From: a virus
Length of the DNA stretch: 25,007 nt
Strand: one strand, 5' to 3'
IMG/VR virus record: IMGVR_UViG_3300008516_000226
Coordinates: 1-25,007 of that record
In this document: in pieces, positions 2,131-25,005 of the stretch
Layout: each line of letters opens with the position of its first letter
How positions within the stretch are numbered: position 1 is the first letter of the stretch
Made by a program: the position numbers and the translations under genes
The notes under the pieces: generated by a model
What the model was told of the DNA's origin: nothing
The model's input: the letters and a program-made list of their open reading frames with translations, nothing else
Databases searched by the model: none

Positions 2131-2143
2131 TTTAAATATTACT
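2131..2143 (-). promoter_or_regulatory. BRE/TATA promoter motif upstream of the 2104 gene
   Basis: On the minus strand this reads AGTAATATTTAAA. AGTAAT fits the archaeal BRE pattern RNWAAW and ATATTTAAA is the TATA box. The box centre is about 31 bases before the ATG at 2104, and no Shine-Dalgarno site lies between, consistent with a leaderless or near-leaderless transcript. It begins two bases after the upstream stop codon. Confidence 0.65.
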
Positions 2144-2145
2144 AT

Positions 2146-2865
2146 TTATAACCCTCCTCCAAAGTTTAAAGATTTTGCACCATTTCCAAAATCAGGTCTA
2201 AAACCTGAACCACTATTATAAAGTTCTGTAACTTCTGCACTAGTAAGTTCTCGATTCCACATTCCAAATTCGTCAATTTGACCATTAAAAGGTAATATGA
2301 TTCCTCCTTGATAACCAGCACCTAGAGGGAATATAGGTGAGGTATTAGATACTGCATCCCCCGAGTGTGCTGCGCTATTATCATTACTACCATTAATATA
2401 AATAATAGTATTACCTCCAGACTTAAAAGTAGCAGTTATCATCCACCAACCACCGACAACAGTTACAGAAGTTAAACTATCTATTGTAACATTAGTAGAA
2501 TCATCTGTTAAAACTCCCCAACGTACTTTTTGTGTTGATAAATATTGAAGATACAAAAAAGTTATTCCTGGACCAGTATTATCTAATTGTCCAAATAATA
2601 ATTTATTTCCTGTAGCACTATCTGCATTGATCCACATATTAACAGAAAATTCAGTTTCACTTGTAAATGTAGTGTTAGTATCAACATAGTCACTAGCTCC
2701 TCCTGGAAAATCAAATCCTTCGTTTATTTTCCCAGTAACTCCAGTATTCACACTTCCACTAGTAGTGCCATCATTACCATTTCCAGATAAATCATCAGGA
2801 TCTGAACCGCTTAAATCAGCATCATCCAAAGAATAATAAGTTAATAAACCATCAGTTAATGCCAT
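2146..2865 (-). CDS. LamG / concanavalin A-like lectin domain virion protein
   Basis: The 239-residue protein is essentially one laminin-G-like jelly-roll. The N-terminus LLTYYSLDDADLSGSDPDD is the usual first strand and Asp-rich loop; FSVNMWINAD, VGGWWMITATFKSGGN and IIYINGSNDNS are middle strands; and NGQIDEFGMWNRELTSAEV followed by TELYNSG is the hallmark closing motif. Such domains bind glycans on cell surfaces, and in viruses they are usually adsorption or decoration proteins. Its start has a GGAG Shine-Dalgarno site 12 bases upstream. It lies two genes after the tail fibre, so binding to a host surface sugar is a reasonable inference. Confidence 0.85.
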   Translation of the reverse strand: MALTDGLLTYYSLDDADLSGSDPDDLSGNGNDGTTSGSVNTGVTGKINEGFDFPGGASDYVDTNTTFTSETEFSVNMWINADSATGNKLLFGQLDNTGPGITFLYLQYLSTQKVRWGVLTDDSTNVTIDSLTSVTVVGGWWMITATFKSGGNTIIYINGSNDNSAAHSGDAVSNTSPIFPLGAGYQGGIILPFNGQIDEFGMWNRELTSAEVTELYNSGSGFRPDFGNGAKSLNFGGGL

Positions 2866-3333
2866 TTATTTTTTCTCCAATGTAATAATATCCGGCTGTA
2901 AGTCTATTTCTTCATAAGAAGTAGCATTATATATTAATGGTTTAATTCTTCTTACTTCCATTACTTGTGATTTAACAAAATCTATAATTTTTTTATTTTC
3001 TTCTGGGGAATATATTCCCATAGAGGCGCTCATTTGTTTATAATCTGGACATTTAATCAATACATTCATCTTTGTATTATTAGATAATCTAGAGTATTTC
3101 ATATCTTTATACTCTTCTAAAGGAATATTTTCTATAACTATTTCTTTTAGTACGACATCAGCTTCTGAATCATAAATAATATTTGTATCTATTTTTCTCT
3201 CATACGGTTTTAAACTATCAATAGCTTCTATAATATTATACCAACCATATCCTTTTTCTGCTTCAGAAGGTCTTATAACTTTCCCTGCCTTAATCTCTTC
3301 AATTTTTCCGTTTATTAATCTTGCTCTTTTCAT
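2866..3333 (-). CDS. Tail-fibre-associated protein, possible fibre chaperone
   Basis: ATG at 3333 is preferred (product begins MKRARLINGK, 155 aa) because the fibre gene stops at 3336; an upstream ATG at 3351 would add six residues and overlap it. The protein is charged and alpha-beta, without the Thr/Ser richness of its neighbours. ARLINGKIEEIKAGKVIRPS followed by a GWYNII motif and IDTNIIYDSEADVV resembles small phage proteins that lie directly after fibre genes and are thought to assist fibre assembly or attachment. That resemblance is weak, so hypothetical protein is a fair alternative. Confidence 0.5.
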   Translation of the reverse strand: MKRARLINGKIEEIKAGKVIRPSEAEKGYGWYNIIEAIDSLKPYERKIDTNIIYDSEADVVLKEIVIENIPLEEYKDMKYSRLSNNTKMNVLIKCPDYKQMSASMGIYSPEENKKIIDFVKSQVMEVRRIKPLIYNATSYEEIDLQPDIITLEKK

Positions 3334-3335
3334 TT

Positions 3336-4334: not shown

Positions 4335-4337
4335 ATT

Positions 4338-5870: not shown

Positions 5871-5872
5871 AA

Positions 5873-8914: not shown

Positions 8915-9565
8915 TTATTCTTCTACCTCTAAAGGCAATATTATATCTAAGTTCCTTTGGAATATTTGCTCTTCGCCTTTTTCAGCGATAAGCAATGGAC
9001 CTAATCCATTAAAGGTTACTAATCTAAAATTTCCGATATTTTTTCTATTACTAAATATAGAACTTCTAATAGTGTCTAAAACTGTTTGTGTTTCTGTTTT
9101 AGTTCTACCATAAGCAACTATACTAATTATAATTGAATTTAAAATAATACTGTGTTGTATATCCCAATCCTCCGATGTATTAGAAATTATATCAAAACCT
9201 ACTCTAGGATAACTATCAATACTTAAATCATCTCTAGGATAATCTGAATATATCTTGTCGCCTGAGCTACCATAGTCATAAGAAACAACGATATTATTAA
9301 CTCCTGTTGCTGGAGCACTATTAAATGTAATAACTTTTGTATCATAATTAATAGTAAAATCTTTAAAGATATATAATGAAGTTCCGCCTACAGTGATTGA
9401 TCTAATATTTTTAGGTGAATTTGTTAATGTAAATTCAGTCTCGACATCATCACCACTAAATTGTTGGCTAGTAGTTGTTACACCTCTTAAAGTTGTACTT
9501 ATACAATCACTACTTCTTAAAAAATCCTGAATAGTATCTAATATTTCTAATGTATTTAAAACCAT
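8915..9565 (-). CDS. Tail terminator candidate with inserted beta module
   Basis: The 216-residue protein lies between the gp10-like gene and the tail tube, where tail terminators occur. Residues 1-30 and 105-216 (helix EILDTIQDFLRSSD, then YPRVGFDII, HSIILNSIIISIVAYGRTKTETQTVLDTIRS, and QRNLDIILPL) fit a small alpha-beta terminator fold. Between them, about 34-98, lies a beta module (FSGDDVETEFTLTNSP to FKDFTINYDTKVITFNSAP and VVSYDYG), making the protein longer than usual. The start is 60-odd bases after the TATA box, with only a weak GTGA nearby. The call rests mainly on position. Confidence 0.6.
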   Translation of the reverse strand: MVLNTLEILDTIQDFLRSSDCISTTLRGVTTTSQQFSGDDVETEFTLTNSPKNIRSITVGGTSLYIFKDFTINYDTKVITFNSAPATGVNNIVVSYDYGSSGDKIYSDYPRDDLSIDSYPRVGFDIISNTSEDWDIQHSIILNSIIISIVAYGRTKTETQTVLDTIRSSIFSNRKNIGNFRLVTFNGLGPLLIAEKGEEQIFQRNLDIILPLEVEE

Positions 9566-9623
9566 TTGTCACTTGACATAAACTAAGCTCTTGCTAGTTT
9601 AATATATTATATATTTTCTAGTT

Positions 9624-9636
9624 TTTAAATATTACT
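9624..9636 (-). promoter_or_regulatory. BRE/TATA promoter motif upstream of the tail block
   Basis: Minus-strand AGTAATATTTAAA, sharing bases with the upstream TAA stop. The box centre is about 64 bases before the ATG at 9565, so this transcript would have a leader of roughly 35-40 bases, unlike the other sites. A seven-codon reading frame (MSSDKWF) in this leader overlaps the main start. Confidence 0.6.
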
Positions 9637-10004
9637 TATAGACTCTTAAAGGCTTTCTTAATTATATCGTCCATATCTTGATGTAATGTAGTTCTAATAA
9701 ACGGATTCGGTTTAGTCCCTGGATGATTAACTTGTTTAACTGGATAAGCTGCACCTTTCCAAAACAAAGCTTTTTTATTCTTAGGTTTAATAATATGAGA
9801 CTTAGTTCCAAACTCAATATATTTAGCATACTCTGGAAGAGTAAATCTAATGCTATCGTTATCTGTTGATAATGTATTATAAAAACTTCTTGATAAAAAC
9901 CCAGTTTTAAAAGGTGCTCTTTCTTCTAATTTTTGAGCTAATAAAAATCCGATTTTTCTCATTAATTCTTTTTCAGTAGAAGGATCTAATATTTTACTAG
10001 GCAT
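9636..10004 (-). CDS. HK97 gp10-like head-tail joining / tail completion protein
   Basis: The 122-residue product has the hallmarks of the HK97 gp10 family: an N-terminal helix with EERAPFKTGFLSRSF (28-41), the AKYIEFGTKSH motif (60-70) and the HPGTKPNPFIR motif (94-104), then a C-terminal helix. Family members lie between head closure and tail terminator genes and help finish the joint or the tail. The start overlaps the upstream gene by eight bases, as expected for coupled translation. Length is normal for the family. Confidence 0.88.
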   Translation of the reverse strand: MPSKILDPSTEKELMRKIGFLLAQKLEERAPFKTGFLSRSFYNTLSTDNDSIRFTLPEYAKYIEFGTKSHIIKPKNKKALFWKGAAYPVKQVNHPGTKPNPFIRTTLHQDMDDIIKKAFKSL

Positions 10005-10359
10005 TTGTCAAAAATATATCTCCATAGCCATAAACATCAATAGTTTCAGCTGCCCCTCTTACAACAGTTCCTTTTACTTGCCAAATTTCAGTTCCAAAAG
10101 TAATCAAGTCATCTTTTCCGATACTATATTGAGGATCATACATAACATAACCAGTTCTATTTTTTAGTTCAGCTTGTTTTTCTTGAGACTCATTAAGCTT
10201 ATTTCTATGTAAAACAACGTTTATAACTTGTGGTGTTCCATTAGAAAAAGTTCTATCTCCTCTATTACCTATTGTTTTAGTTCTAGGAGTCCATGTTACA
10301 GATGTAGAAAAATCTGCTAAAGCATTATTAATAAAATCATTTGAATCACTTATTGTCAT
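9997..10359 (-). CDS. Head closure / head-tail connector protein
   Basis: The 120-residue protein starts with a short helix (SNDFINNALADF) followed by strands STSVTWTPRTKTIGNRGD, VVLHRNKLNES and YDPQYSIGKDDLITFGTEIWQVKG, ending in VDVYGYGDIFLTN-like form. The layout matches SPP1 gp16/lambda FII-like stoppers, whose KGD-type loop and 'tool for oxidised position' strand are present here as IGKDDLITFGTEIW. It lies between the adaptor-like gene and gp10-like gene. A TATA box 28 bases upstream without a Shine-Dalgarno site suggests that this gene begins a leaderless transcript. Confidence 0.72.
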   Translation of the reverse strand: MTISDSNDFINNALADFSTSVTWTPRTKTIGNRGDRTFSNGTPQVINVVLHRNKLNESQEKQAELKNRTGYVMYDPQYSIGKDDLITFGTEIWQVKGTVVRGAAETIDVYGYGDIFLTNA

Positions 10360-10382: not shown

Positions 10383-10395
10383 TATAAATATTACT
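10383..10395 (-). promoter_or_regulatory. BRE/TATA promoter motif upstream of the head closure gene
   Basis: Minus-strand AGTAATATTTATA overlaps the upstream TAG stop. The centre of the ATATTTATATA box is about 28 bases before the ATG at 10359, and no Shine-Dalgarno site intervenes. It is the most divergent of the five related copies (TTTATATA in place of TTTAAATA). Confidence 0.6.
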
Positions 10396-12571: not shown

Positions 12572-13633
12572 TCATGCAATTCCATACATTTGAGAACAAC
12601 TTGCTTCAAATGTATTAACTACTGTCAGATACTCTTTAAGCATGTAAACGTATCCATCAGCGTCTGTATATTTCTCTTCATAAGTTAAATCTTGTAACAC
12701 TGCGAAGAAAATATGTCTCATATCTAAGAATAAAATTCTTTTAGCACTAGCTGTTGTAGGCATGAATCTATCCTTAATAAACATAACTCCATCAAATTCA
12801 AAGGCATCTGGAATACCAAATCCTAACATAGATTCTGAAGGGTTTGTAACTTGTCTTTGAATATCTAATAACAATCCTTTCATATAGTTATGAGTACTTG
12901 CATCAGTCACAGCTGTTGTTACTAATCCATTCGCATTGAAAGTAGTTGCAAACTCAGCTCTAATTTGTGCTAAAGTTGGGTAACCACCACTTAAATTAGT
13001 TGTGTTAGTAGTAATTTGTTTAATTAAACCGTTTGGTTCGTAAACAGAAGTTGTACTATCACCATTAATTAATGCATCTTCTTCAGCTTCATAGATTGAA
13101 TCAGTTTTTACGCCTAAATCTAATTGTGAAGGATCAATAAAGCCTCTCATAGCGGCAATAGCCGGACCAGAGATTTGACCTTTAGCATATAAGAACTTAA
13201 TTCCTAAGCTTACTCTATCATAAGTATCTTCTACAACATTTAATGATTGGTTTTCACCAGCCCAGTAAGCTCCACCTTTAGCAGTTAATGGAATATAATC
13301 GTAAGTTAAACCTTTTACAGCTCTTCTTGGAGTTATATTTCTTAATGGTGTTTGTCTAATAGTTCTATTAACTACATTTGGATCTGGATATACTGGAACT
13401 AATGCTGTTCCTGCTGTTCCTGCTCCACCTGTTTGAGTGTCAATTGACACTTTATTAGTTGAATAGAATTTTGTAGCAATTTCTAGTCTTTTATCAGTTT
13501 TGTTCCATGGATTAAAATACTCTTTTGAATATCCACCTTGGTTATCTTTACTAATATCACCAGCGTCAAATCTTGATTTACAAACTTCTAAAGAGAAGTT
13601 ATCTTCATATCCTTTAAATAATGCTTGTACCAT
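12572..13633 (-). CDS. Major capsid protein, HK97-type
   Basis: The 353-residue product lies directly after the protease-scaffold gene. Sequence marks fit the HK97 fold: an N-terminal arm to about residue 85, LRNITPRRAVKGLTYDYIPL (97-116) leading into the peripheral region, KGGAYWAGENQS and DRVSLGIKFLYAKGQIS (119-155), and YEAEEDALINGDST (181-194) of the long spine helix and following loop. C-terminal DRFMPTTASAKRILFLDMRH and EKYTDADGYVYMLKEYLTVV form the axial domain strands. It assembles into the icosahedral head. The start lacks a strong Shine-Dalgarno site. Gene order protease-capsid makes the call secure. Confidence 0.88.
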   Translation of the reverse strand: MVQALFKGYEDNFSLEVCKSRFDAGDISKDNQGGYSKEYFNPWNKTDKRLEIATKFYSTNKVSIDTQTGGAGTAGTALVPVYPDPNVVNRTIRQTPLRNITPRRAVKGLTYDYIPLTAKGGAYWAGENQSLNVVEDTYDRVSLGIKFLYAKGQISGPAIAAMRGFIDPSQLDLGVKTDSIYEAEEDALINGDSTTSVYEPNGLIKQITTNTTNLSGGYPTLAQIRAEFATTFNANGLVTTAVTDASTHNYMKGLLLDIQRQVTNPSESMLGFGIPDAFEFDGVMFIKDRFMPTTASAKRILFLDMRHIFFAVLQDLTYEEKYTDADGYVYMLKEYLTVVNTFEASCSQMYGIA

Positions 13634-13635
13634 TT

Positions 13636-13992
13636 TTAATATAATTTACCAATAGGTAATTTACCGTCTTTAAACGCTTTCTCAATATCTTCTTCAGACA
13701 TATCAATATCTGATCCTTGTTCAGTGAACGTTTGTTTTTCAAGAGAGGCTTTCTTTTCTGCTTCTAATGCTTTTTCTGCTTCTTCAACTTTAGTTTCGGC
13801 TTCTTCAACCTTCGCTTCAGCTTCTTCAGCATTCTTATTAGCGTCTTCTAAATTTTTGTTTAGTTCAACTATTTTCGTAGATTTAGATTCAAGCTGTTTT
13901 GTTAAATCTGAGATTTTAGTTTCAAAATCCTTATTAACCTCAACAACTTTAGAATCAAAATCTTTTTGAGTAAAAATTTTCTCTTCAGACAT
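13636..13992 (-). CDS. Possible separate scaffold protein from internal in-frame start
   Basis: ATG at 13992 (residue 179 of the protease protein) has AAGGAAAG upstream with about 11 bases of spacing and would give a 118-residue protein (MSEEKIFTQKDFDSKVVEVN...) with the entire coiled coil. It starts exactly where the scaffold begins. In lambda, Nu3 scaffold is likewise made from an internal start in the protease gene C. Only the placement and SD-like site support it here. Confidence 0.45.
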   Translation of the reverse strand: MSEEKIFTQKDFDSKVVEVNKDFETKISDLTKQLESKSTKIVELNKNLEDANKNAEEAEAKVEEAETKVEEAEKALEAEKKASLEKQTFTEQGSDIDMSEEDIEKAFKDGKLPIGKLY

Positions 13993-14526
13993 TTTTTTTC
14001 TTTCCTTAAGGTTTTTGGCGTTAAAGCTTTTAGCCACGGCCATAGCTCTACCATGTCTATTAGATGGTATAGCAACAAAACTTGCTTCAAGTAATTCAAC
14101 ATCCGTAAATGTTCTAATTACTTTCCCACAATCTTTTTGATCCTCATACTCCTTAACAATTGCACCAATAGATATTCCTAATTCTGCTCCTTCGTCTAAC
14201 ATTCCTTTAATAATCTTAGCGTTTGGATTAGAATCAAAAAACTTTGGCTCTGCAACTAAAGCAGCATGTCCATCTATATCAACGATCCGTTTATTGGTCC
14301 ATTGACAGACTTGATTTAGAACTTTATTCTCATGATCTATCAATCCAGCTACATAACCAAAATTTCTAGAAACTTTTTCGAGACAGCCTTTTGAGACTCT
14401 CTCTTCATCCCTATCCATTGAGGTATCAGAAAGGACAGCAATGTATTTGCCTTGTGTACCTTTCATAACCGGTGCAAACATTTCTGTTTTAAACGGTTCA
14501 TGTGTTGCCTTAGATAATGTTGTCAT
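13636..14526 (-). CDS. Prohead protease (U35/HK97-type) fused to scaffold
   Basis: The 296-residue protein has the U35 protease in residues about 15-165: GKYIAVLSDTSMDRDEERVS (26-45), GLIDHENKVL with probable catalytic His65, ELGISIG (115-121) with probable catalytic Ser119, and ELLEASFVAIPSNRHGRAM (144-162). Residues 179-285 are a heptad coiled coil (EEAEAKVEEAETKVEEAEKA), a scaffold that occupies the procapsid interior and is then degraded. An internal ATG at residue 179 may also produce scaffold alone. The gene begins 30 bases from a TATA box without a Shine-Dalgarno site, so it probably opens a leaderless transcript including the capsid gene. Confidence 0.88.
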   Translation of the reverse strand: MTTLSKATHEPFKTEMFAPVMKGTQGKYIAVLSDTSMDRDEERVSKGCLEKVSRNFGYVAGLIDHENKVLNQVCQWTNKRIVDIDGHAALVAEPKFFDSNPNAKIIKGMLDEGAELGISIGAIVKEYEDQKDCGKVIRTFTDVELLEASFVAIPSNRHGRAMAVAKSFNAKNLKERKKMSEEKIFTQKDFDSKVVEVNKDFETKISDLTKQLESKSTKIVELNKNLEDANKNAEEAEAKVEEAETKVEEAEKALEAEKKASLEKQTFTEQGSDIDMSEEDIEKAFKDGKLPIGKLY

Positions 14527-14550: not shown

Positions 14551-14565
14551 GTATTTAAATATTAC
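14551..14565 (-). promoter_or_regulatory. BRE/TATA promoter motif upstream of protease-capsid genes
   Basis: Minus-strand GTAATATTTAAATAC, identical over these 15 bases to the portal copy at 20634-20648. The box centre is 30 bases before the ATG at 14526 and no Shine-Dalgarno site intervenes. It gives the protease, scaffold and capsid genes their own transcription start. Confidence 0.7.
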
Positions 14566-14569
14566 ATAA

Positions 14570-15643
14570 TTACAGAGGCCTAAATAATAATGTGGATCTA
14601 CAATTTGGGTGGGCTGGTGGCGTCATAATTGATATATTTGTCTTGTCATCAATGAAAGGTTCGTCTAATGGAATAGGATTATTTCCATATTTTCTCATTA
14701 GTCTTTCACAGATAGGTGAAGTTCTGTCATCAAGTTGAACTTTATATACTTTACCACCCTCAATACCAGATTCTTTATAGCCAAGTATTTTACCTTCGTT
14801 AATTATCCGGTTTGTTTCAGTTCTTGCAATCATTTGAGCTCTATGATCACTAAATCCATTAAAGGTTTTCTTTACACCTTCAATTATATCTTCATTAGAT
14901 TTATTTTCTTTAACTCCATCTTGTACAGATTTAATTACTTTTTGTTGGATCTCTTTAGTTACTCCTTTAATTCCCGGCCATAATTTACCATTGATTGTAT
15001 AGCCATTTAATTGTTCTTGATTTAATTTATTAAGCTTCTTCTCAAAGGGTTCATTAAATGGTACTTTAACATTTAGTTCATCTTCAGCTTGGTTTTTACC
15101 TAGCTCTAAATCAAACTTTAAGAACCTCTTGGAATTCCTCATAAATGCTAAAGTGTTAATTGAGTTAAACAGATTAGATATAAATACACCATACTTATCA
15201 GTTGGCATTTGTTTAATTGCTTTAATTGCTTGATTTTCAAAGTTATCAAACATCTTAGACAAAAAATCATTATAGTTCTTGGCATTCTTTACTATTTCGT
15301 CAATGTCTTCCTTAAATCCCTTTTTCAAAGATGTTTCTTTATATTCAGAACTTTCATCTTCCATAAGTTCATTTAAATCTTCATCTAATACTTCAGCAAT
15401 AAAAATTCCAATGTCTTCTACAGGAAGACAGTTTGAACAATAATCAATTTTAAATTCTTGAATTGATGAAAAACTTTCTATTTCAGATTTTTCAATAATT
15501 GTATAATATTCAATCCTCTCTCTTAATGATTTAAAAAATAAAACAAAAAGAGTCTTTTTCTCCATCACATGTTCTGTTGGGTGTGATGTTTTTCTATCGT
15601 TTTCTAGTTTTTCTCTATATTGTGTAAATGTTAGTTTTATCAT
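14570..15643 (-). CDS. MuF-like minor head protein
   Basis: The C-terminal third is the phage Mu protein F-like domain (about residues 235-355): helix EIQQKVIKSVQDGVKENKSN, GFSDHRAQMIARTETNRIIN (263-282), GYKESGI, then LDDRTSPICERLMR (305-317) and MTPPAHPNCRSTLLF (340-354). Asp306, Cys312, His345 and Cys348 are the conserved D..C...HPNCR residues. Residues 1-200 are a helical, acidic region typical of the N-terminal parts of these proteins. It is a few copies per head and is often encoded right after the portal; here four genes intervene. A (TAAA)4 stretch lies between the upstream stop and this ATG. Confidence 0.88.
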   Translation of the reverse strand: MIKLTFTQYREKLENDRKTSHPTEHVMEKKTLFVLFFKSLRERIEYYTIIEKSEIESFSSIQEFKIDYCSNCLPVEDIGIFIAEVLDEDLNELMEDESSEYKETSLKKGFKEDIDEIVKNAKNYNDFLSKMFDNFENQAIKAIKQMPTDKYGVFISNLFNSINTLAFMRNSKRFLKFDLELGKNQAEDELNVKVPFNEPFEKKLNKLNQEQLNGYTINGKLWPGIKGVTKEIQQKVIKSVQDGVKENKSNEDIIEGVKKTFNGFSDHRAQMIARTETNRIINEGKILGYKESGIEGGKVYKVQLDDRTSPICERLMRKYGNNPIPLDEPFIDDKTNISIMTPPAHPNCRSTLLFRPL

Positions 15644-15649
15644 TTTTAT

Positions 15650-15665
15650 ATTTATTTATTTATTT
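15650..15665. repeat. Tetranucleotide repeat (ATTT)4
   Basis: Four perfect ATTT units on the plus strand (TAAA reading on the minus strand) fill the short gap between two genes and include the stop codon of the gene at 15664. It replaces any Shine-Dalgarno site for the MuF-like gene. Such a repeat could vary in length by slippage. Confidence 0.7.
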
Positions 15666-17337
15666 ATGTACCGCTACAATCATTCAAACTAATTAATGTT
15701 AGATTAGCTGAATCAATATAAGCATCAGATGTACTTGTATGGTTAGCCATACCTAATTCAACTATATCATCAACAACTAAATCAATAATTCCCGTTCCAC
15801 CCATAGAACCAACATCATTAGCTCCTAGTTTCCTACACCCTCTTGTTTGATTTTGTATTGTATCATTAATTAATATACCTCCCGACCAAGTGGTATTATT
15901 AGTATCATTAAAACATATATTCCAATCAACTTTATATTTCCCGGCCCTAGTACACTTTAATTCTTGAGTATTTTGGAATGTAAAGCCCTTTTGATTTCCA
16001 TCATTCATATCAGGGATAGGTTCAAACACATCAATAGTGGTTATAACTACTTGAGTATTATCTCCATATTGCCACATATTACCGTAGTAAGGTCTGTAAC
16101 TGCTCAATTCATCCCATTTAGCAATATTAGTATCGAAATCTGTTGATTGAGATCCAGCAGTATTACATTTATAGATTTTATGCTTATTTACAATCCAATC
16201 ACATAATGAATAAGTAGTACCATCAACCCAAGGCAAGATAGATACTATGTCTAAGACATTAGCAGAGAAATATGTTAAATCTAAATCTGGAAACCAATCA
16301 CCAATTCCGCCAATAGTATATCCATTCATTTCTAAAGGAGAATTAAACTGGCCTTTAAATATTACTTCTTGAGTACCTCTATAAGAATTGGGAGATCCTA
16401 TTGGTAAAATACCATTACTTGAATTTATTGGATCAACTACAAATTCATCTAAGGGTCCTAAATACTCCCCTCTAGCAAATTCTTCTTCAGTAATAAATTC
16501 ATCTATATCTTCTAAAGTATCACTCCTAATTGAAGAATTTCTATACCAATCAGATTCACCACTAATTATATCTATTTCCATATTATTCAAAATCATATCT
16601 TCAGGTAAAGTTATTGTGACTTCAAATTCAGATACAGTTCTAGATTCTGCCACAGCACTTGGAACTGTGGAACTACTCCATTCAAAAGTAGAAGGGGTAA
16701 AATCAACAGTATCAAAAGTTTTTGGTGCACCAAAAAAAGAATTCACTATATTGTCTGCTAAAGGGAATCCAAATTCCGATATTCTATCGAATGGAGAAAC
16801 ACTATTACCTGTTTTTATTGCTGGCCATAAGATATTACCAATTCCTGGACCTGGAAATTTAGGAGCATTTTTAATTAAACTAAACTCTCCCGATAATTTT
16901 TCAACATAAAATTTATCAGTTGTAACTGAAGATCCATGAGTACTAACACAAAACCATTCAAAAACATCAGGACTAGTTTCAGTATATCTCTCAATACATA
17001 AAAAACTTCCATCTACTTTTAATCTAAAATCATCCACACTAGGAATTTCAGGGGCAGTATCATAACCTAAATATATGATTCCCTCTTTAATATGGAAAGA
17101 TTGTTTATCTATAGCAACCTTATCGGAAGTAATAGGAACTATATCACCATTAGCATCTATCTCCCAAAGATTAATAAGTTTATTCTCTGTTCCATCAAAT
17201 ATATATAATTCAGATGTGTCCGTACAATAATGAGGCTCACCTAATGTAGCAGCATTTTTAGTAGTAGTAGTATTAACATCAGCAAACAATCCTGACTTTA
17301 GTTTCAAACTAATCGGTCTATTATTTAAATCACTCAT
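15664..17337 (-). CDS. Large fibre/receptor-binding-type virion protein
   Basis: The 557-residue protein begins RPISLKLKSGLFADVNTTTT and LGEPHYCTDTSELYIFDG (32-49), the 'each entity gets a default value' pattern common at the N-terminus of phage virion proteins. A Trp/Tyr-rich stretch around 368-411 (WVDGTTYSLCDWIVNKHKIY) resembles carbohydrate-binding module 5/12. The C-terminus (about 435-552: TRAGKYKVDWNICFND, GGILINDTIQNQTRGCRKLG, GIIDLVVDDIVELGMAN, ANLTLISL) looks like a C1q/TNF-type jelly roll, often the trimeric tip of fibres. Start: GGTAA 9 bases upstream. It probably binds a host surface glycan. It lies between portal and MuF genes, unusual for a fibre. Confidence 0.75.
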   Translation of the reverse strand: MSDLNNRPISLKLKSGLFADVNTTTTKNAATLGEPHYCTDTSELYIFDGTENKLINLWEIDANGDIVPITSDKVAIDKQSFHIKEGIIYLGYDTAPEIPSVDDFRLKVDGSFLCIERYTETSPDVFEWFCVSTHGSSVTTDKFYVEKLSGEFSLIKNAPKFPGPGIGNILWPAIKTGNSVSPFDRISEFGFPLADNIVNSFFGAPKTFDTVDFTPSTFEWSSSTVPSAVAESRTVSEFEVTITLPEDMILNNMEIDIISGESDWYRNSSIRSDTLEDIDEFITEEEFARGEYLGPLDEFVVDPINSSNGILPIGSPNSYRGTQEVIFKGQFNSPLEMNGYTIGGIGDWFPDLDLTYFSANVLDIVSILPWVDGTTYSLCDWIVNKHKIYKCNTAGSQSTDFDTNIAKWDELSSYRPYYGNMWQYGDNTQVVITTIDVFEPIPDMNDGNQKGFTFQNTQELKCTRAGKYKVDWNICFNDTNNTTWSGGILINDTIQNQTRGCRKLGANDVGSMGGTGIIDLVVDDIVELGMANHTSTSDAYIDSANLTLISLNDCSGT

Positions 17338-17339
17338 TT

Positions 17340-18221
17340 TTATAAATTACCTGCATCAATACACGGACTGTCTGGTGCTAAATTAAAATTTAAAGCAGCA
17401 GGATCGACCATCAACGGATCAACTTCAATGTTTCCAACCTCAGTATCTGGTGCGTCATCAAATTCCCACACCCCTGAGCCAGCATTATAGTAGTCATTAT
17501 ATGAAAATTCTGTAAAAGTGAGTACTCCAGATGCAGCATCTCGTACAATCTTTTGATTTGACGAGGTGTCAGCATTGAATATGCAATTTTTAATTGATAG
17601 GGTCGGTGATGCGGCAGAAGCATAAGTGAAGGCATAAAATAAAGTATCTGATAGTGATGAAAATACACAATTTACAATAGTGAAGCTGTCTGCCGAACTT
17701 CTGGCACAAATGCATCCACTACCGCTTTGTCTGGCAATCTCCTGAAAGACACAGTTACTCACGACGATGACGCTCGCGCCAGATTCATTAACAAAAATAC
17801 ATCCACCGTTTTGGAGTAAAATATCAATATTTCTGAACCATAGGTTATTACAGGTCATTGTTACGCCAGGGACAGTTGCGACCGATAAAATCCCCGTCCT
17901 AATGGCAGGAAGTGCCATATCAATGAACTGCACCCCGCTCGCATTGATATCCGCATCGAAATCCAGGCGAAGGTAGTATGCCTTACTATCTCCATCAATG
18001 ATACAAGTTCTCGGGTCACTGTTCTCACTGGTTAGGGTGCTCTCAACAGAACACGTTGCCCATTCTGAGGCTGTCAGTACATGCGTTCCATCTACTACAG
18101 TTAGTGTATCACCATCACTAAGTAATCCAAAAGCTACTGTAAAAGTTTTAACAGCTAATAATTTAGTTGTTCCGTCATCTGCGTCATCTCCACTTGTTGG
18201 GTCTATCCAATATGTTGTCAT
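17340..18221 (-). CDS. Right-handed beta-helix virion protein with GC-rich core
   Basis: The 293-residue protein starts TTYWIDPTSGDDADDGTT, the entry seen in many pectate-lyase-like helix proteins, and ends DPLMVDPAALNFNLAPDSPC followed by IDAG, their usual closure. Between lie stacked coils such as VVSNCVFQEIARQSGSGCIC, TIVNCVFSSLSD and LSIKNCIFNADTSS, with a repeated NC(V/I)F turn. No catalytic residues are recognised, so binding or depolymerising a surface polysaccharide is open. The interior of the gene is about half G+C by hand count whereas its ends and neighbours are near 30-40%, pointing to domain transfer. SD GGAGGAAC, eight bases from the ATG. Confidence 0.8.
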   Translation of the reverse strand: MTTYWIDPTSGDDADDGTTKLLAVKTFTVAFGLLSDGDTLTVVDGTHVLTASEWATCSVESTLTSENSDPRTCIIDGDSKAYYLRLDFDADINASGVQFIDMALPAIRTGILSVATVPGVTMTCNNLWFRNIDILLQNGGCIFVNESGASVIVVSNCVFQEIARQSGSGCICARSSADSFTIVNCVFSSLSDTLFYAFTYASAASPTLSIKNCIFNADTSSNQKIVRDAASGVLTFTEFSYNDYYNAGSGVWEFDDAPDTEVGNIEVDPLMVDPAALNFNLAPDSPCIDAGNL

Positions 18222-18222
18222 T

Positions 18223-18807
18223 TTAAAATGTTCCTCCGTTTATTGTTTGTGGCCGTTGTATAACTCCCATACTAGTTGTCATGCCTTGAACTATAGGCAA
18301 ACCATTAATATCTTTAACATCACTATCTCCACTAATTAAAGATAAATGCCATGGTGTGAAATCTGTGAATTCAATATCTTTAGGTGTTTCATTTTCATCT
18401 GTAACAATATTCACACCAGTTAATATTGTTTTCCAAGCACCGTCTAGATATGACTGAATAACATTAATTCCATTAGATTGCTCTAAAACTCTAAATCCTC
18501 CATTATCTTCAGTCCCAGTTCTACCAAATAAACACCTACTTAGAGTTTTACTAGAAATATAAGTGTGCCCATAACCTTCCCTATTCTCTCCTTCTATTCC
18601 TATATTAGGGTTAGTATTATTCTCGTTACCATAAGAACTCATCTCGAACCATTTAGTACCATCCCAAAAACATAGTTGATCGGTATCGGAAGCATAACTA
18701 AAACTAATCTCGCAAGGAGTAGAATTTATTATATTATCTTTAGTATCTACAACAGGGACCTTTACTAAATCAAAATTACCAGTAAAAGGATTAAATTTGT
18801 AACTCAT
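18223..18807 (-). CDS. Virion surface/fibre-linked protein
   Basis: The 194-residue protein opens SYKFNPFTGNFDLVK, an anchor seen in small phage structural proteins, followed by TPCEISFSYASDTDQLCFWD (a parallel of the DTSELYIFDG motif in the gene at 15664), and closes QRPQTINGGTF, also a recurrent phage C-terminus. Internal parts are predicted beta-rich. Its start overlaps the preceding stop (ATGA) and has GGTGAG just upstream. It probably belongs to the same surface structure as its two downstream neighbours. Specific function unknown. Confidence 0.6.
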   Translation of the reverse strand: MSYKFNPFTGNFDLVKVPVVDTKDNIINSTPCEISFSYASDTDQLCFWDGTKWFEMSSYGNENNTNPNIGIEGENREGYGHTYISSKTLSRCLFGRTGTEDNGGFRVLEQSNGINVIQSYLDGAWKTILTGVNIVTDENETPKDIEFTDFTPWHLSLISGDSDVKDINGLPIVQGMTTSMGVIQRPQTINGGTF

Positions 18808-19121
18808 GTTCTCACCACTCCAGTTAATTTATTATCTGCATTGTAAGATAACGTTAAAGTTGCTTGAGTCACAGTTACTAATTTATATACAACTGTTTCA
18901 ATCTCTCCTTCTCCATTTCCTGATGCGACATAAGTTAATACTATCTCATCATGCTCTTTTGGAACTAAACTCCCAAAATTTATTACTGGAAATGGATTAG
19001 CTGAATTTATCTCGTTACCATCTTCGTCAATTTGAGTGACTCTATGTGCTTTAGCTGGCCATTGAACTGTATCTTGTTTAACATTATTTAATTCTGTTGT
19101 AGTTGGTGATCTATTTGCCAT
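18804..19121 (-). CDS. Small virion protein after the portal
   Basis: The 105-residue product (ANRSPTTTELNNVKQDTVQW near the N-terminus, ANPFPVINFG and EHDEIVLTYVASGNGEGEIE in the middle, and a TLTLSYNADNKLTG strand at the end) is predicted to have a short helical start and a beta domain. Similar small proteins occur in phage fibre or decoration operons, often with the DEIVLTYVASG strand. The gene overlaps the portal by 11 bases with GAGAGGT nine bases upstream, so it is translated coupled to the portal. Role unknown. Confidence 0.58.
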   Translation of the reverse strand: MANRSPTTTELNNVKQDTVQWPAKAHRVTQIDEDGNEINSANPFPVINFGSLVPKEHDEIVLTYVASGNGEGEIETVVYKLVTVTQATLTLSYNADNKLTGVVRT

Positions 19122-20613
19122 TTTCTAAAAACCTCTCAAACGATTTGGAATATTTATCTTTATTCTTCTCCTTATCGTCTTTCTTGGGGTTTTTATTATC
19201 TTCTTTAGGCTTATTACCAAATGGAGTAAAACTTGTCATATTTGGATCCATAGGTCTTCTTAATGGTTCATCACCCCACTCTACATCATCCTTACCTTGC
19301 ATAGCTCTATATTCATTAATAGTCATAACACCATTATTTAATTCTTGCATATTATGTTCAAACTCAATTTTTTCTTTAGCATGATCTTTAGGCTTATAGA
19401 TAAATTTAATTCCTGGCTCTTCTTCTTGCAATATTTCCTTAATAGTTCTATTATTATGTAAATCTTCTATTAATTTGATATAAGGTTTTAAAGCGTTTCT
19501 AATAGTAACTCTTTCTTGTCCATCATCATTAGATTTATTTGAATTCTCAAAAAATCCGGCTTCTGTTGGAGATACACCGAATATTGCAAATACAATTTTG
19601 AAGTACCATTTTTGACCGTCTAGCCATTCAAGATCTCTGTTATTCTCAGCTAATTTATGAAAGTTTTCTACTGACCAGTTAACAAATCCTACTTTATGTG
19701 GTTTACCTTTATATTCATTGTTCCACATTCTTTTTAGTTTCTTTAGTTGTTCATTAGGTAACTTAGGAAGAGTTGCTAAAATAGACGGTGTTGCATTGTT
19801 CACAAATAAATCTTTATTATATCTTGTACCTTCAATTAATAGTTCTAGAACTTGTTGAATTGCTTGAACACCAGAAAACCCATAAACAGAATAAGATCTA
19901 GGGTTCATAATTAAATACTCTAACTCATCGAATTCAAATGCTGTGGGGTTTTGTCTTGGGTGTTTAAAAGAATATTGATAATAACGTTGTAAATTTTTGT
20001 GAAGGTCTACTTGTTTTAAAATAGATCCACCATCAACAGTTTTTAATTGAGCTAATTCTCTTTGACCAAAAGGCTTCAATACTAATCCAGTGTCATTTCC
20101 TAGCACTCTTCCGTACATATCATAAATAGGCACTTCTCCAATATCATAAGAGTTAGATGTATAAATGAAATTAACAACTCCAGCATCAATCTCTCCAATA
20201 TCTGAGATTAATTCAGAATTCAAATAATCAACAGATTGTTTAGATTTATTAACACATCTAAAGAATTCTTTTACTTTCTTAATCTTCTCCTCATATTGTT
20301 TAGAATCCTCATCTTCATCTTCTGGAACAATGTCCCATTCCATACAATACATTTGTTTCTTAAATGTATTAAGAACTATCTGAACCCAAGAAGATTTAGC
20401 AAACCTTCTTATCTTTTCTATATCTACACCTCTAGGTTGGCCTAATCTAGCAGAAAAAAACCATTGTGGATAGATTGCTTGTTTTCCTTGGAGCTTTTCA
20501 TCTTCAAGAGAAATAGTAGCATATCCAACAGTATCTTTAGCACTTTGATATTTATTAGTATCTCCTACTATCAATCGGTTAGTATTAAAGGCTAGCCTTT
20601 TAATAAAATTCAT
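19111..20613 (-). CDS. Portal protein
   Basis: The 500-residue product shows the usual portal features: an N-terminal clip/wing part (FAKSSWVQIVLNTFKKQMYC at 71-90 followed by WDIVPED), LVLKPFGQRELAQLK, ELEYLIMNPRSYSVYGFSGVQ (230-250), helix and FVNNATPSILATLPKLP (270-286), KWYFKIVFAIFGVSPTEAGF (335-354) and TINEYRAMQGKDD (431-443). Residues 468-500 are a disordered Lys/Asp tail. Twelve copies form the DNA channel at one head vertex. A TATA box 27 bases upstream without a Shine-Dalgarno site indicates a leaderless transcript opening with this gene. Length and motifs are normal. Confidence 0.92.
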   Translation of the reverse strand: MNFIKRLAFNTNRLIVGDTNKYQSAKDTVGYATISLEDEKLQGKQAIYPQWFFSARLGQPRGVDIEKIRRFAKSSWVQIVLNTFKKQMYCMEWDIVPEDEDEDSKQYEEKIKKVKEFFRCVNKSKQSVDYLNSELISDIGEIDAGVVNFIYTSNSYDIGEVPIYDMYGRVLGNDTGLVLKPFGQRELAQLKTVDGGSILKQVDLHKNLQRYYQYSFKHPRQNPTAFEFDELEYLIMNPRSYSVYGFSGVQAIQQVLELLIEGTRYNKDLFVNNATPSILATLPKLPNEQLKKLKRMWNNEYKGKPHKVGFVNWSVENFHKLAENNRDLEWLDGQKWYFKIVFAIFGVSPTEAGFFENSNKSNDDGQERVTIRNALKPYIKLIEDLHNNRTIKEILQEEEPGIKFIYKPKDHAKEKIEFEHNMQELNNGVMTINEYRAMQGKDDVEWGDEPLRRPMDPNMTSFTPFGNKPKEDNKNPKKDDKEKNKDKYSKSFERFLENGK

Positions 20614-20633: not shown

Positions 20634-20648
20634 GTATTTAAATATTAC
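20634..20648 (-). promoter_or_regulatory. BRE/TATA promoter motif upstream of the portal gene
   Basis: Minus-strand GTAATATTTAAATAC plus two more A/T bases, identical over 15 bases to the copy at 14551-14565. Box centre 27 bases before the ATG at 20613, no Shine-Dalgarno site between. Best single example of a leaderless archaeal promoter in the window. Confidence 0.72.
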
Positions 20649-20660
20649 ATAAAAATTTAA

Positions 20661-21159: not shown

Positions 21160-21660
21160 TTAATTAGTCTCCGGTGCATCAATCTTTATTACTTCTCTAG
21201 TAATAGCTTTTCCTTGTTTAATTGTCTCAGTTACTTCATAAGCAATATTATATTGAGCTGAAGTAGCTCTTTTAATAGTATCTCCATTAGCAAGAGTGAC
21301 ACTAGTTGTATTCTCAAATAATTTTTTATTTCCTTTCTTATCAGAGTCAAATACTGAAAATCTAAGTTCATAGTGATCATTATTAATCTTTCTATTTTCT
21401 AATTTAGCTATATGCATTTTAGGAGGATCAGTTTTCCAGTGTCCATTAATCTTAATAGATTTAGCTGAGCCCATTTCTTTAATAGTTTTAATTCTTTCTT
21501 TAGCTCTTGCACTAACCGGCATAAAAACTTCTAATGTTGCCAAATCTTTCATAGCTTGCAATTTATCGCTAATTATTTTAGATAATGATTTTACTTCAGT
21601 CTTAACTGAATCTTTTAATTCTTCTGGTAATTTGTTTATATTATTTTGTATATTGCTCAT
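21160..21660 (-). CDS. Hypothetical protein upstream of portal
   Basis: The 166-residue product has a helical N-terminal half (LPEELKDSVKTEVKSLSKII and SARAKERIKTIKEMG) and a beta-rich second half (KINGHWKTDPPKMHIAKLE, HYELRFSVFDSDKKGNKKLF, ITREVIKIDA). It overlaps the winged-helix gene by four bases and so belongs to the same operon. No domain recognised. The mix of a helical arm and a small beta domain would suit a protein that binds another virion component, but that is speculation. Confidence 0.55.
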   Translation of the reverse strand: MSNIQNNINKLPEELKDSVKTEVKSLSKIISDKLQAMKDLATLEVFMPVSARAKERIKTIKEMGSAKSIKINGHWKTDPPKMHIAKLENRKINNDHYELRFSVFDSDKKGNKKLFENTTSVTLANGDTIKRATSAQYNIAYEVTETIKQGKAITREVIKIDAPETN

Positions 21661-21863
21661 TTTGTACGATAATATGTTTTATTTCTCCCTTTATAACCTG
21701 AGATATAAGATGTTTTAACTTCAATCTCATCTCTAGTTGAGAGTGCTTTTAAGGATCTACGAATACTACTTGTATTAATATCGATATGCTTAGCTATATC
21801 ATGACATGACATCCATTTCGGATAATTATTTTTTAGTATTTCCGCTATGTCTCCTTGTCCCAT
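21657..21863 (-). CDS. Winged-helix DNA-binding protein
   Basis: The 68-residue product has a clear winged-helix pattern: helix 1 GDIAEILKNNYP, helix 2 MSCHDIAKHIDI, recognition helix NTSSIRRSLKALSTRDEI, then wing strands EVKTSYISGYKGRNKTYYR. It is a DNA-binding domain without a ligand or dimerisation part, as in small archaeal and viral regulators. Being encoded inside the late packaging operon, it may regulate late genes, or bind DNA at the packaging site. Start has only a weak AAAAG; coupling to the overlapping upstream mini-ORF is possible. Confidence 0.75.
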   Translation of the reverse strand: MGQGDIAEILKNNYPKWMSCHDIAKHIDINTSSIRRSLKALSTRDEIEVKTSYISGYKGRNKTYYRTK

Positions 21864-21945: not shown

Positions 21946-21957
21946 ATTATAAAAGCC

Positions 21958-23376
21958 TCACCAGACCACTGAAATGTCCCGAATAGCCGCAACTCCTAGT
22001 TCAAAATACATTCTCATCATTAAAGCATCAGCAAAATCGGGAGATCTTCCAATAGTCTCTTTTATCTCGTCTTTTCCAATAATAGCTAGTTTTTTCTCGT
22101 TTTTATCAACGTCTTTACGTCTTACAATTTCTAATTCTTCTATTAAAGCATTTCTGACATCCATTGGAATATCACTGTAAACCCCAATCATTCCTTTGTT
22201 AATTAACTCAGCTAGCTTAAAATAGCATTGTGAACGTAGATTAGCATAGAAATACCTATTGGTATCTTGGGTATCTTCAAAAATATCTACAATAGGGCGA
22301 GAACCATTTACAAACCCAGTACAGCCATAGATCTCATCAACTAGTCCACCACCAACACCATCCTCATCAATTACAATATTAGATACTTCAACATGGTGTT
22401 TATCAGCCTTAGACAAAATCTTCTCTTTAAATAATCTAATATTAGACTTATCTTCAAACCATATCTTTTTAATAAATGTACCTTGCCATAAAACTATAAC
22501 AGCCTTATCTCTTCCACCTCTAGCTACATCAACAGATAAGAACATTGGTCCATTTAATTCATCAGAGAACTCACGACCAAAAGAATCAAGTAATTTGTCA
22601 TATTCTATTAATAATCCTGAATCATCGTCATACTCCCAATTACCATGCATAAGACGTTCTCTTAATACCTTATCTTTAATTTCCCTTAAATTTTGTTCAT
22701 ACTCAGCTCTAGTATGCGGATTATCAGAATATAGAGATTGAACAAATTTCCAATTAGCCGGTAGTGTTCCTTCTTTCCAAGGTTTATATGCTTGAAAATA
22801 TCCCCAGTTCTTCTTTGGGTTACATGTCATAAACATTTTAGAAGGTAAATCAAACCCAGGTACTTTATGCCTTCCGATTCTAGATTTAAGAACATCAAAT
22901 GCTTTCTCAGGTATTTCTCCTATTTCCTCTAGCCAACCAGAAGTAAACTCCATAGAACCAAAACGCTCATATAGTGGATCACTAGGTTTCTTAGCGACAT
23001 CAAGTAAATCTATTCTTGAGCCTTGACCATTGAACTGCTTAGTTTCAAAATCAATAAACTCAATAAAGCTTTGTTGTGAGTTAAGTTTCCAGATTTCTTT
23101 AGGTATTTTATGGAATGCACAAACCTTAAGCCAAGTAATATAAGTAGATCCCATAATACGCTTTAGCTCGTTTCTACCTATAAACAATTTAGCCCCTGGA
23201 TATCTTAAGGACATTACTAAACACCATTCACAACCAAGCCATGACTTACCACCACCAGCACCACCACCAAACATAATAAACTTAGTTTTATCGTCCATTA
23301 AGTATCGCCAGCCTAATCGTTGTTTGTCTGTTGGCGACAATTTTACGTTTAGCGATTGTTTAGTTTCTTCTATCAT
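21958..23376 (-). CDS. terL: Large terminase subunit (ATPase-nuclease)
   Basis: The 472-residue protein is complete. ATPase: Walker A GGGAGGGKS (37-45), Walker B with catalytic acidic pair in FTSGWLEEIGE (144-154), coupling motif FMTCNP (182-187). Nuclease: LSVDVARGGRD (280-290, Asp283), VIDEDGVGGG (335-344, Asp337 and Asp339) and SPDFADAL (445-452, Asp447/Asp450), forming the RNase H-like acidic cluster. It pumps DNA into the prohead and cuts concatemers. The start overlaps the upstream gene by four bases (ATGA). Confidence 0.96.
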   Translation of the reverse strand: MIEETKQSLNVKLSPTDKQRLGWRYLMDDKTKFIMFGGGAGGGKSWLGCEWCLVMSLRYPGAKLFIGRNELKRIMGSTYITWLKVCAFHKIPKEIWKLNSQQSFIEFIDFETKQFNGQGSRIDLLDVAKKPSDPLYERFGSMEFTSGWLEEIGEIPEKAFDVLKSRIGRHKVPGFDLPSKMFMTCNPKKNWGYFQAYKPWKEGTLPANWKFVQSLYSDNPHTRAEYEQNLREIKDKVLRERLMHGNWEYDDDSGLLIEYDKLLDSFGREFSDELNGPMFLSVDVARGGRDKAVIVLWQGTFIKKIWFEDKSNIRLFKEKILSKADKHHVEVSNIVIDEDGVGGGLVDEIYGCTGFVNGSRPIVDIFEDTQDTNRYFYANLRSQCYFKLAELINKGMIGVYSDIPMDVRNALIEELEIVRRKDVDKNEKKLAIIGKDEIKETIGRSPDFADALMMRMYFELGVAAIRDISVVW

Positions 23377-23603
23377 TTTTCATACCATTCTCCAAATATT
23401 CTTTTAAATACCCAAAATGAGAATATAACTTGATATTTAAATCTCCAAATAAATCTAGCTAATAAATCCATATCTTTAGGTTTGGCACCATAAAAAATAA
23501 TTTTCTCACATTTTAGTTTCCAATCTTTATAAGATGTTTTAAATGGTGTTCTTTCATACCAATCAATTCTAATTTTTATAATTGGAAGTTTAATGTTTAC
23601 CAA
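23373..23603 (-). CDS. Small basic hypothetical protein, 76 aa
   Basis: The product is basic and aromatic (IKLPIIKIRIDWYERTPFKT near the N-terminus; RFIWRFKYQVIFSFWVFKR in the C-terminal half). The Trp/Phe-rich C-terminal helix is amphipathic and could touch membrane or protein partners. It overlaps the upstream gene by 14 bases and the terminase by four; a GAGGTG site lies upstream of the ATG. No family recognised. Its constant company with terminase genes in the operon is the only functional hint. Confidence 0.5.
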   Translation of the reverse strand: MVNIKLPIIKIRIDWYERTPFKTSYKDWKLKCEKIIFYGAKPKDMDLLARFIWRFKYQVIFSFWVFKRIFGEWYEK

Positions 23604-24213
23604 TTTTCACCTCTTTTCTAATTTTTGTAAATAATGAGAAATAGTTCACATCATCTATTATTCTAGAATTATACAATAAATGATTAGCTTCTCCACCTTT
23701 AAACTCTTTTTGAAGCTCCTTAGCTAGATTTAACATTAATATATTATGAAATTCCTTATATGCTTGATCCATAGACAAAACTGTTATATACCAATCTTTA
23801 ATAGATCGAAGCCTTTTAAGAGAAGGCTTCTTATTCATCTCTCTAGTAATAAAAGTTTTACTCTTATTGTTGTAGTTCCCAGTCATCAAATAGCATTTAT
23901 ACCATTCTCTTAGAGCTTCTTCAAATGCTGTATCAAATCGCTTCAATAAATAGTTATGCTCACTATTCGGAACCTTCTTTAGTTTATATTTGCTAAAGAA
24001 CTTATCAACTATCTCTAATGTTGGTAATAACAATCTATATTTCAATGTGAAATGAATAAACTTAAACTTCTTAGCATATTTGGATTTATTCTTAATATCA
24101 TGAACATTATACTTAAAATTACCCTTCTCTTTCTCTAATATATCCATTTGCTTATAATGATCCGATTTCTTTCTTGAAAACAAGATATGGCTAATTATTC
24201 GTTTTAGATTCAT
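23590..24213 (-). CDS. Hypothetical helical basic protein, 207 aa
   Basis: The product is Lys-rich and predicted almost wholly helical (KRIISHILFSRKKSDHYKQM at the N-terminus, KKFKFIHFTLKYRLLLPTLE and FDTAFEEALREWYKCYLMTG in the middle). An excellent GGAGGT site lies six bases before the ATG, which overlaps the previous gene by 23 bases. No catalytic motif is seen. It stands between small and large terminase genes, where HNH nucleases or decoy genes often insert, but it has no HNH or other nuclease motif. Unknown function. Confidence 0.6.
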   Translation of the reverse strand: MNLKRIISHILFSRKKSDHYKQMDILEKEKGNFKYNVHDIKNKSKYAKKFKFIHFTLKYRLLLPTLEIVDKFFSKYKLKKVPNSEHNYLLKRFDTAFEEALREWYKCYLMTGNYNNKSKTFITREMNKKPSLKRLRSIKDWYITVLSMDQAYKEFHNILMLNLAKELQKEFKGGEANHLLYNSRIIDDVNYFSLFTKIRKEVKIGKH

Positions 24214-24472
24214 ATTCTACCTCCAGAGTTATTTCTACTATCTTTAGCTTAATTAGTAGATTAGTGATCCAATTAGCGGCTCTAATATTAAGAATCTTAT
24301 TTTCACTATAATGCTGCCATAGATCTTTAGATGTTTCTTTATTCAGATAAGCTTTAAATGTTCTACCATCTGTAAGCTTATTCTCAATACACCCAGCTCC
24401 ATTATCATAGTATTTAAACCATGTCTCCATATTCTGACCTTCTGTAGTTTCTAATCTAATCTGTCTTACCAT
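24191..24472 (-). CDS. Hypothetical protein, 93 aa
   Basis: ATG at 24472 (MVRQIRLETTEGQNMETWFK) is chosen over ATGs at 24496 because GGAGGT lies about ten bases upstream of it. It overlaps the small terminase by 17 bases. The product has WFKYYDNGAGCIENKL and KLTDGRTFKAYLNKETSKDL in a possible alpha-beta fold and ends in the charged TLEVEYESKTNN. No family recognised. The overlapping starts suggest co-translation with the terminase genes. Confidence 0.55.
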   Translation of the reverse strand: MVRQIRLETTEGQNMETWFKYYDNGAGCIENKLTDGRTFKAYLNKETSKDLWQHYSENKILNIRAANWITNLLIKLKIVEITLEVEYESKTNN

Positions 24473-24902
24473 TTCCAAATATACCTCCATCATCAAAAGT
24501 AATGTTAACAGCTGTTAGGCCTTTATGTGCAACCTCTTGACGCTCAACATATCCTTTATCCTTCCCAAGTGTTTTTAATCCGAATATGACAGCCTGTGGG
24601 TTCCTAAGAGCTACTAAATCTTTAAAGGCATCCTCTAAAGTGTCAATCATCCTATCACGACATAATTCAATAGCTTTAGCAAAATGAGGATAATTAGCTT
24701 TCCAGCTATAAAAAGAATTCTTAGGCATTCTACATAATTCTATAGATCTTGATATATTATAACTATTTTCTACATATACAACTAAGAATCGCTGTTGAGC
24801 ATCACTTAATTGTAATTCAGAAAAACTATTTATATCCTCTGGAACTTTTAAAGCTCTAAGTCTTTTCTCTTCTTTATCTTTAGTATCTTCGGTTTTTACC
24901 AT
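24456..24902 (-). CDS. terS: Small terminase subunit
   Basis: The 148-residue product has an N-terminal charged region, a helix-turn-helix at about 37-70 (LSDAQQRFLVVYVENSYNIS, then LCRMPKNSFYSWKANYPHF), a helical core (AIELCRDRMIDTLEDAFKDL) and a C-terminal tail; the layout matches the phBC6A51-type small terminase. It would recognise viral DNA and load the large terminase. It is the first gene of the packaging block and lies about 24 bases from a TATA-like box, without a Shine-Dalgarno site, implying a leaderless transcript. Confidence 0.82.
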   Translation of the reverse strand: MVKTEDTKDKEEKRLRALKVPEDINSFSELQLSDAQQRFLVVYVENSYNISRSIELCRMPKNSFYSWKANYPHFAKAIELCRDRMIDTLEDAFKDLVALRNPQAVIFGLKTLGKDKGYVERQEVAHKGLTAVNITFDDGGIFGNGKTD

Positions 24903-24903
24903 T

Positions 24904-25005
24904 TTATATTATAGTTGATTTAAATTTATATCCTATTTTAATTAATATTTTATTAATTATTCGGATCTTATCAAATATAGCCTCTTTTTTACAGCTTTTC
25001 TTTGA
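24904..25005 (-). CDS. Possible 3' end of an upstream gene
   Basis: A minus-strand frame enters from the right window edge and stops at TAA (24906-24904), one base before the small-terminase ATG. It gives 33 residues (SKKSCKKEAIFDKIRIINKI then LIKIGYKFKSTII). A second frame ends at 24957 (NQRKAVKKRLYLIRSE). The sequence is too short and AT-rich to decide which, if either, is coding. The first fits the tight gene packing better but would include the TATA-like box. Confidence 0.3.
   Translation of the reverse strand, partial: SKKSCKKEAIFDKIRIINKILIKIGYKFKSTII
24919..24931 (-). promoter_or_regulatory. TATA-like box upstream of small terminase
   Basis: Minus-strand ATATAAATTTAAA, with its TATAAATTTA centre about 24 bases before the ATG at 24902. 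It lacks the GTAAT prefix of the other copies, having AGGAT instead, so it is the weaker match. The whole stretch is very AT-rich. Confidence 0.45.

Follow-up and report, generated by a model that had tools for sequence, protein, structure and literature searches.

Repeated TATA-like boxes with a virus-specific upstream element precede the late genes of a tailed virus, probably of archaea

The late promoters of phage T4 are read by a phage sigma factor, gp55, and the promoters of T7, T3 and SP6 are alike within one virus and different between viruses. To our knowledge, little is known about how archaeal tailed viruses switch to their late genes, and a narrow search of the literature on late promoters of archaeal viruses returned no matching paper. 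In the halovirus HF2 (Haloferacalesvirus), reporter assays and primer extension showed that intergenic repeats are TATA promoters; the TATA begins at -26, and changes in the BRE were without effect on activity (PMC8707807). The archaeal TATA is an 8-bp A/T-rich box with its centre ~27 nt before the transcription start site (TSS) (PMC5316973). Tailed viruses of small uncultured archaea exist as proviruses of Woesearchaeales (Nanoarchaeota); their promoters were not studied in that work, and they are likened to the virus treated here by description, not by sequence (PMC11705971).

Here, we analysed IMG/VR record IMGVR_UViG_3300008516_000226, whose 25,007 bases are referred to as the window and which comes from a virus known as environmental DNA only. 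An HK97-type head, a portal, a terminase large subunit and tail genes place this virus in the Caudoviricetes. Its presumed late (virion) operons form a minus-strand array in the order probable TerS, TerL, a small winged-helix gene, portal, adhesin-like genes, minor head, head protease, MCP, connectors and tail genes. The features of this array are as follows, all on the minus strand.

24924..24931, minus strand: tentative TATA ATATAAAT ahead of the probable TerS gene, centre ~26 nt before the ATG
24456-24902, minus strand: probable TerS gene
21958..23376, minus strand: terminase large subunit (TerL); the closest annotated phages infect Bacteroidetes, ~40% identity
21657..21863, minus strand: small winged-helix protein, HTH_11-like (E 3e-5), kept in relatives
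20637..20649, minus strand: late box TGTAATATTTAAA (then TAC) of the portal gene 19111-20613, TATA centre 25.5 nt before the ATG, without Shine-Dalgarno site
19111..20613, minus strand: portal protein (PHROG 2662, E 1e-41)
16354..16366, minus strand: exact box copy within ORF 15664-17337, where it encodes VIFK, with an in-frame ATG ~26 nt downstream
14554..14566, minus strand: late box TGTAATATTTAAA (then TAC) of the head protease-MCP operon (13636-14526, 12572-13633), TATA centre 29.5 nt before the ATG
13636..14526, minus strand: head maturation protease, opening the head operon (PHROG 80, E 6e-10)
12572..13633, minus strand: major capsid protein (MCP), same operon as the protease, 62-84% identical in relatives
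10383..10395, minus strand: late box AGTAATATTTATA of gene 9997-10359, TATA centre 25.5 nt before the ATG
9624..9636, minus strand: late box AGTAATATTTAAA of gene 8915-9565, predicted 35-nt leader with a possible hairpin
2131..2143, minus strand: late box AGTAATATTTAAA of gene 1739-2104, TATA centre 28.5 nt before the ATG

The adhesin-like genes separate the portal from the minor head gene (14570-20613); one has a weak Mtd_N match (E 0.003) and another is DUF5123-like. A single ORF encodes both portal and minor head in several relatives (L198:9797-12316).

The 13-mer WGTAATATTTAWA occurs in six exact copies in the window, all on the minus strand, five of them at late-gene junctions and one intragenic. 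A first-pass annotation, made from the letters of the window, had described the five junction copies, which we confirmed, and had missed the sixth at 16354-16366. Its positions 2131, 9624 and 10383 were correct, and its positions 14551 and 20634 turned out to be the ends of a longer stretch of about 20 bases (TTATGTAATATTTAAATACT) over which two copies are identical, the 13-mers themselves starting at 14554 and 20637. The tentative TATA ahead of the TerS gene differs from the late-box sequence. When one mismatch was allowed, the whole window held 7 matches against 1.76 expected, a number reached by none of 100 shuffles. Five of the six exact copies are intergenic though intergenic DNA makes up 5.7% of the window (binomial p about 4e-6), and the box is thus not equally frequent in coding DNA. 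In 3,000 simulations of the intergenic DNA under an order-1 model, no copy arose in 2,977, a single copy in 23 and never more. Together, the whole-window shuffles and the intergenic model exclude a chance origin of the repeated 13-mer. The one intragenic copy is probably due to chance and possibly an internal promoter; the in-frame ATG beyond it could start a shorter C-terminal product.

Distances in the window were counted from the centre of TTTANNNN to the ATG. For the gene ending at 9565 the ATG lies 60 nt from the box centre, which corresponds to the predicted 35-nt leader; in this leader (9560-9602) two weak hairpins are possible (z -2.1), and a short upstream reading frame overlaps the start codon. 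The other four centres lie 25.5-29.5 nt before the ATG, and a clear Shine-Dalgarno site is present at none of the five junction-boxed genes. The earlier description of four boxes close to the ATG (27-31 nt) without Shine-Dalgarno site holds with slightly different numbers. With an archaeal TATA centred ~27 nt upstream of the TSS, leaders of a few nt or none at all are predicted for four of the five mRNAs.

Searches with portal and MCP yielded dozens of related viral contigs, with MCPs 62-84% identical among those aligned; the MCP had no match among 50,697 annotated phage records. Most of the closer relatives carry a box of the form GTNNTATTTAAATA upstream of portal at the distance seen in the window, and the portal orthologues thus share element and position with box 20637..20649. 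Under the rule applied, no box was called at 10 of 43 portal starts (about a quarter). From the TTTAWATA centre to the ATG the relatives have 28.9 nt (sd 3.5) at portal and 27.6 nt (sd 1.5) at the protease, which again predicts leaders of only a few nt. By gene calls in 21 relatives and the window, a TATA-like box at -38..-25 precedes 21% of first genes vs 2.6% of operon-internal genes, and other distance bins showed no comparable excess. Across the family, Shine-Dalgarno sites were found at 6 of 48 boxed first genes (12.5%) vs 172 of 390 operon-internal genes (44%; p 1.6e-5). Accordingly, the GGAGG or GGTGATC motifs that the first-pass annotation had ascribed to genes within operons are present at about half of them and are no general rule. 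The Methanobacteriales virus vir080 was tried as an archaeal control and rejected: there, 1 of 15 first genes was boxed and 10 of 15 had a Shine-Dalgarno site, so archaeal viruses do not generally show the boxed, Shine-Dalgarno-poor pattern.

The late promoters of T4 are likewise short, AT-rich, single-element promoters at many virion genes. Their boxes (TATAAATA) start 22-36 nt before the ATG, matching the position in the window, so spacing alone cannot exclude bacteria and the claim that no bacterial -35/-10 pair would explain it fails. The virus could be a bacterial phage whose AT-rich box, like TATAAATA, serves a phage sigma factor as -10 element and is followed by a short leader. Some T4 boxes also continue as in ATACT, and in several relatives (G005, G012, G008) GGAG lies between box and ATG, which fits awkwardly with a TSS 26-27 nt away from the TATA centre. 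However, T4, whose hosts are bacterial, keeps its Shine-Dalgarno sites, with 10 of 12 boxed genes having one vs 7 of 33 here (p 0.0003), although the operon-internal genes of the present family do use such sites. Moreover, T4 encodes a sigma factor, whereas no match to sigma-70 region 4 exceeded the cut-off in 13 records, and the pairing of phage sigma factor and Shine-Dalgarno leader that marks T4-type late promoters was not seen. As this reading also fits poorly with the GAAAG-TTTATA promoters, the archaeal tRNA-Pro and the archaeal-like PolB described below, we consider it unlikely.

A promoter of a different make was found on the opposite strand of the window.

497..510, plus strand: canonical archaeal-type promoter GAAAGG-TTTATAAA, 25.5 nt before the ATG at 532

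The genes that it would serve are probably early genes. GAAAG-N-TTTATA promoters, with canonical BRE and TATA, precede opposite-strand and some other non-virion genes, both in the window and in six or more relatives. An opposite-strand ORF at 2-382, cut by the record end, looks by eye like a Holliday junction resolvase or RecB-type nuclease and had no Pfam match. The purine- and A-rich BRE of the GAAAG promoters is not a general feature of the late promoters. It had been argued that AGTAAT at the late boxes fits the BRE consensus RNWAAW; this is so in the window, but AGTTGT, AGTGGT and AGTAGT in relatives do not fit. Since the 8 nt concerned are not A-rich and mostly not RNWAAW, the match does not generalise and is incidental, being lost in relatives. 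That the late promoters do not generally have a BRE does not exclude an archaeal promoter, because BRE mutations are dispensable in HF2.

What is new here is that these 8 nt at the BRE position form an element common to the late promoters of one virus and different between viruses. For 21 relatives boxed at both portal and protease, including L007, which is possibly the same virus as the window, the 8 nt upstream of TATA at the two promoters agreed at 7.48 of 8 positions when both came from one virus and at 4.5 of 8 when they came from different viruses. The within-virus value was reached in 0 of 5,000 permutations (p<0.0002), which treat the viruses as independent, while common ancestry would raise, not lower, the similarity between viruses. 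Among relatives whose records matched in a pattern scan, most had one variant in two or three copies. Such findings suggest that the late promoter is virus-specific and read by some factor.

Sameness within a virus and difference between viruses also recalls T7, T3 and SP6, and the boxes could be promoters of a virus-encoded, T7-like single-subunit RNA polymerase, about 20 bp near-identical in each genome and different between relatives. We regard this as the remotest of the explanations considered: TBP better explains a TATA core at fixed distance from the ATG, and no RNA_pol (PF00940) match was found in 13 records, a weak point as control genomes were silent too. Alternatively, the promoters are archaeal and the upstream sameness reflects a promoter cassette copied by recombination, with no dedicated factor involved. 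When the portal and protease promoters within each of 24 viruses were compared, sameness was 0.94 for the element and 0.98 for the TATA, and fell to 0.73 and then 0.54 in the next downstream stretches. Downstream of the start of the TATA, similarity extends for up to 20 nt, as a copied cassette would have it. In contrast, the flank at -18..-9 showed no significant excess (0.36 vs 0.32, p 0.06; 24 viruses) while the element was 0.94 identical, so that sameness is confined to the promoter across these viruses. The copying of a cassette, which overlaps with the explanation that we prefer, is a possibility to be taken seriously, though short of an even chance.

It is also consistent with copying that we obtained no convincingly covarying regulator among seven genes tested for covariation with the element. 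The winged-helix gene 21657-21863 was rejected as late factor since its divergence, once portal relatedness is allowed for, does not track the element (partial r -0.14, p 0.88). For the minor head protein, partial r was 0.33 (p 0.0015), which, as one of seven genes tested, was taken as uninformative. Viral TFB, TBP or PCNA gave no match over cut-off in 13 records.

Evidence on the domain of the host comes mostly from the relatives. Relative L131 (MCP 67% identical) has two back-to-back tRNA genes directly upstream of the portal promoter (L131:9713-9857; also L181:11100-11244). Its tRNA-Pro, read by hand, has G1-C72, G2-C71, G3-C70 and A73, the archaeal set, and encodes no CCA; bacterial tRNA-Pro has G72 (PMC9976931). 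The tRNA-Thr is degenerate, with a U73 end, two acceptor-stem mismatches and an odd anticodon loop. Among solved structures, the PolB of another relative is nearest to that of Thermococcus/Pyrococcus (102 bits vs about 40 for T4-type phage polymerases); among phage records it matched mostly cyanophages and enterobacterial phages (~24%), and comparison of the replication proteins with phage records gave no clear affiliation. For a thymidylate synthase of a relative the methanogen model was nearest, with a score far below cut-off. N-glycosylation sequons are in large excess over shuffled sequences in large surface proteins of several relatives, as in L189:1408-6930 with 79 sequons vs 26 expected, and weakly in excess in the window itself (94 vs 77, z 2.2). 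Very large surface proteins with lectin or beta-helix domains are encoded at L189:1408-6930, L183:11170-14142 and L182:1421-4879. Two profile scans of 84,980 species genomes, by an insensitive peptide-pattern method, found no portal/MCP relatives as proviruses.

TerL tells a different story, being ~40% identical over 94-96% of its length to phages of Bacteroides, Flavobacterium, Cellulophaga and Polaribacter. Of the two proteins for which the first-pass annotation had proposed to look for archaeal virus relatives, TerL is thus nearest to Bacteroidetes phages, and the portal is nearest to haloarchaeal and other scattered viruses. Were this a Bacteroidetes phage, the box would be an AT-rich coincidence or a Bacteroidetes promoter. 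However, 51 loci of similar G+C related by TerL only have no TATA peak (3.9% vs 2.2%) and almost no Shine-Dalgarno sites (5.9%), whereas the present family has both; portal affinity and the lack of an MCP match in phage records speak in the same sense, and we hold a Bacteroidetes phage to be very improbable. Since the TerL-only loci lack both traits, the Bacteroidetes affinity most likely reflects exchange of TerL, which would account for the discord. This contrast, of a Bacteroidetes-like TerL beside a portal, MCP and promoters of another kind and of TerL-only relatives without TATA boxes or Shine-Dalgarno sites, was noted from the window (21958-23376) together with L008-L086. The TerL of relative G019 (L187:11119-13371, minus strand) is 750 aa long with an apparent intein inserted at the P-loop, after SAG/C.

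An archaeal host is favoured, if indirectly, because Shine-Dalgarno sites are depleted at boxed starts only, the distance to the ATG is conserved in relatives, GAAAG plus TATA occurs on the opposite strand, and relatives have an archaeal-type tRNA-Pro, PolB and sequons, signs absent from the TerL-only relatives. The archaeal host, the several shared promoters and the (near-)leaderless first genes proposed by the first-pass annotation are thus favoured by comparative evidence, not by its arguments from spacing and BRE. These viruses seem to form a group of archaeal viruses not described so far.

In the reading that we consider likely, the virus is an archaeal tailed virus and the repeated element acts as an archaeal TATA-type core promoter for its late (virion) transcription units. 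TTTAWATA would be bound by the TBP of the host, which would bring in the host RNA polymerase to start about 26-27 nt downstream, at or a few bases from the ATG. Most mRNAs of boxed first genes would then be leaderless or nearly so, and later genes of the operons would rely on Shine-Dalgarno sites. As in HF2, several near-identical intergenic TATA-promoter repeats of an archaeal tailed virus would serve different transcripts, and their position is kept in relatives. The HF2 repeats, however, span 29-58 bp and were tested at the bench, whereas about 20 bp are common here and are known from sequence alone; in addition, the part at the BRE position is virus-specific here and differs between relatives.

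The 8-nt element sits where TFB would contact the BRE and differs from the GAAAG of the opposite-strand promoters. Most likely, we infer, it is recognised in the late phase by a factor of the virus or by an alternative TFB of the host, which so turns on several late operons together. We tentatively propose, at rather less than even confidence, that the late genes have promoters of a class with a virus-specific sequence in place of the BRE. The reader of this sequence would be a late factor that is dedicated to the task and diverges rapidly, the archaeal equivalent of the late sigma factors of phages, and it would give each virus its own late promoter code. The promoter anatomy sets this family apart from phages with a similar TerL, and the conserved TATA with a virus-specific element at the BRE position, beside canonical promoters on the opposite strand, makes the idea of an archaeal late factor directly testable.
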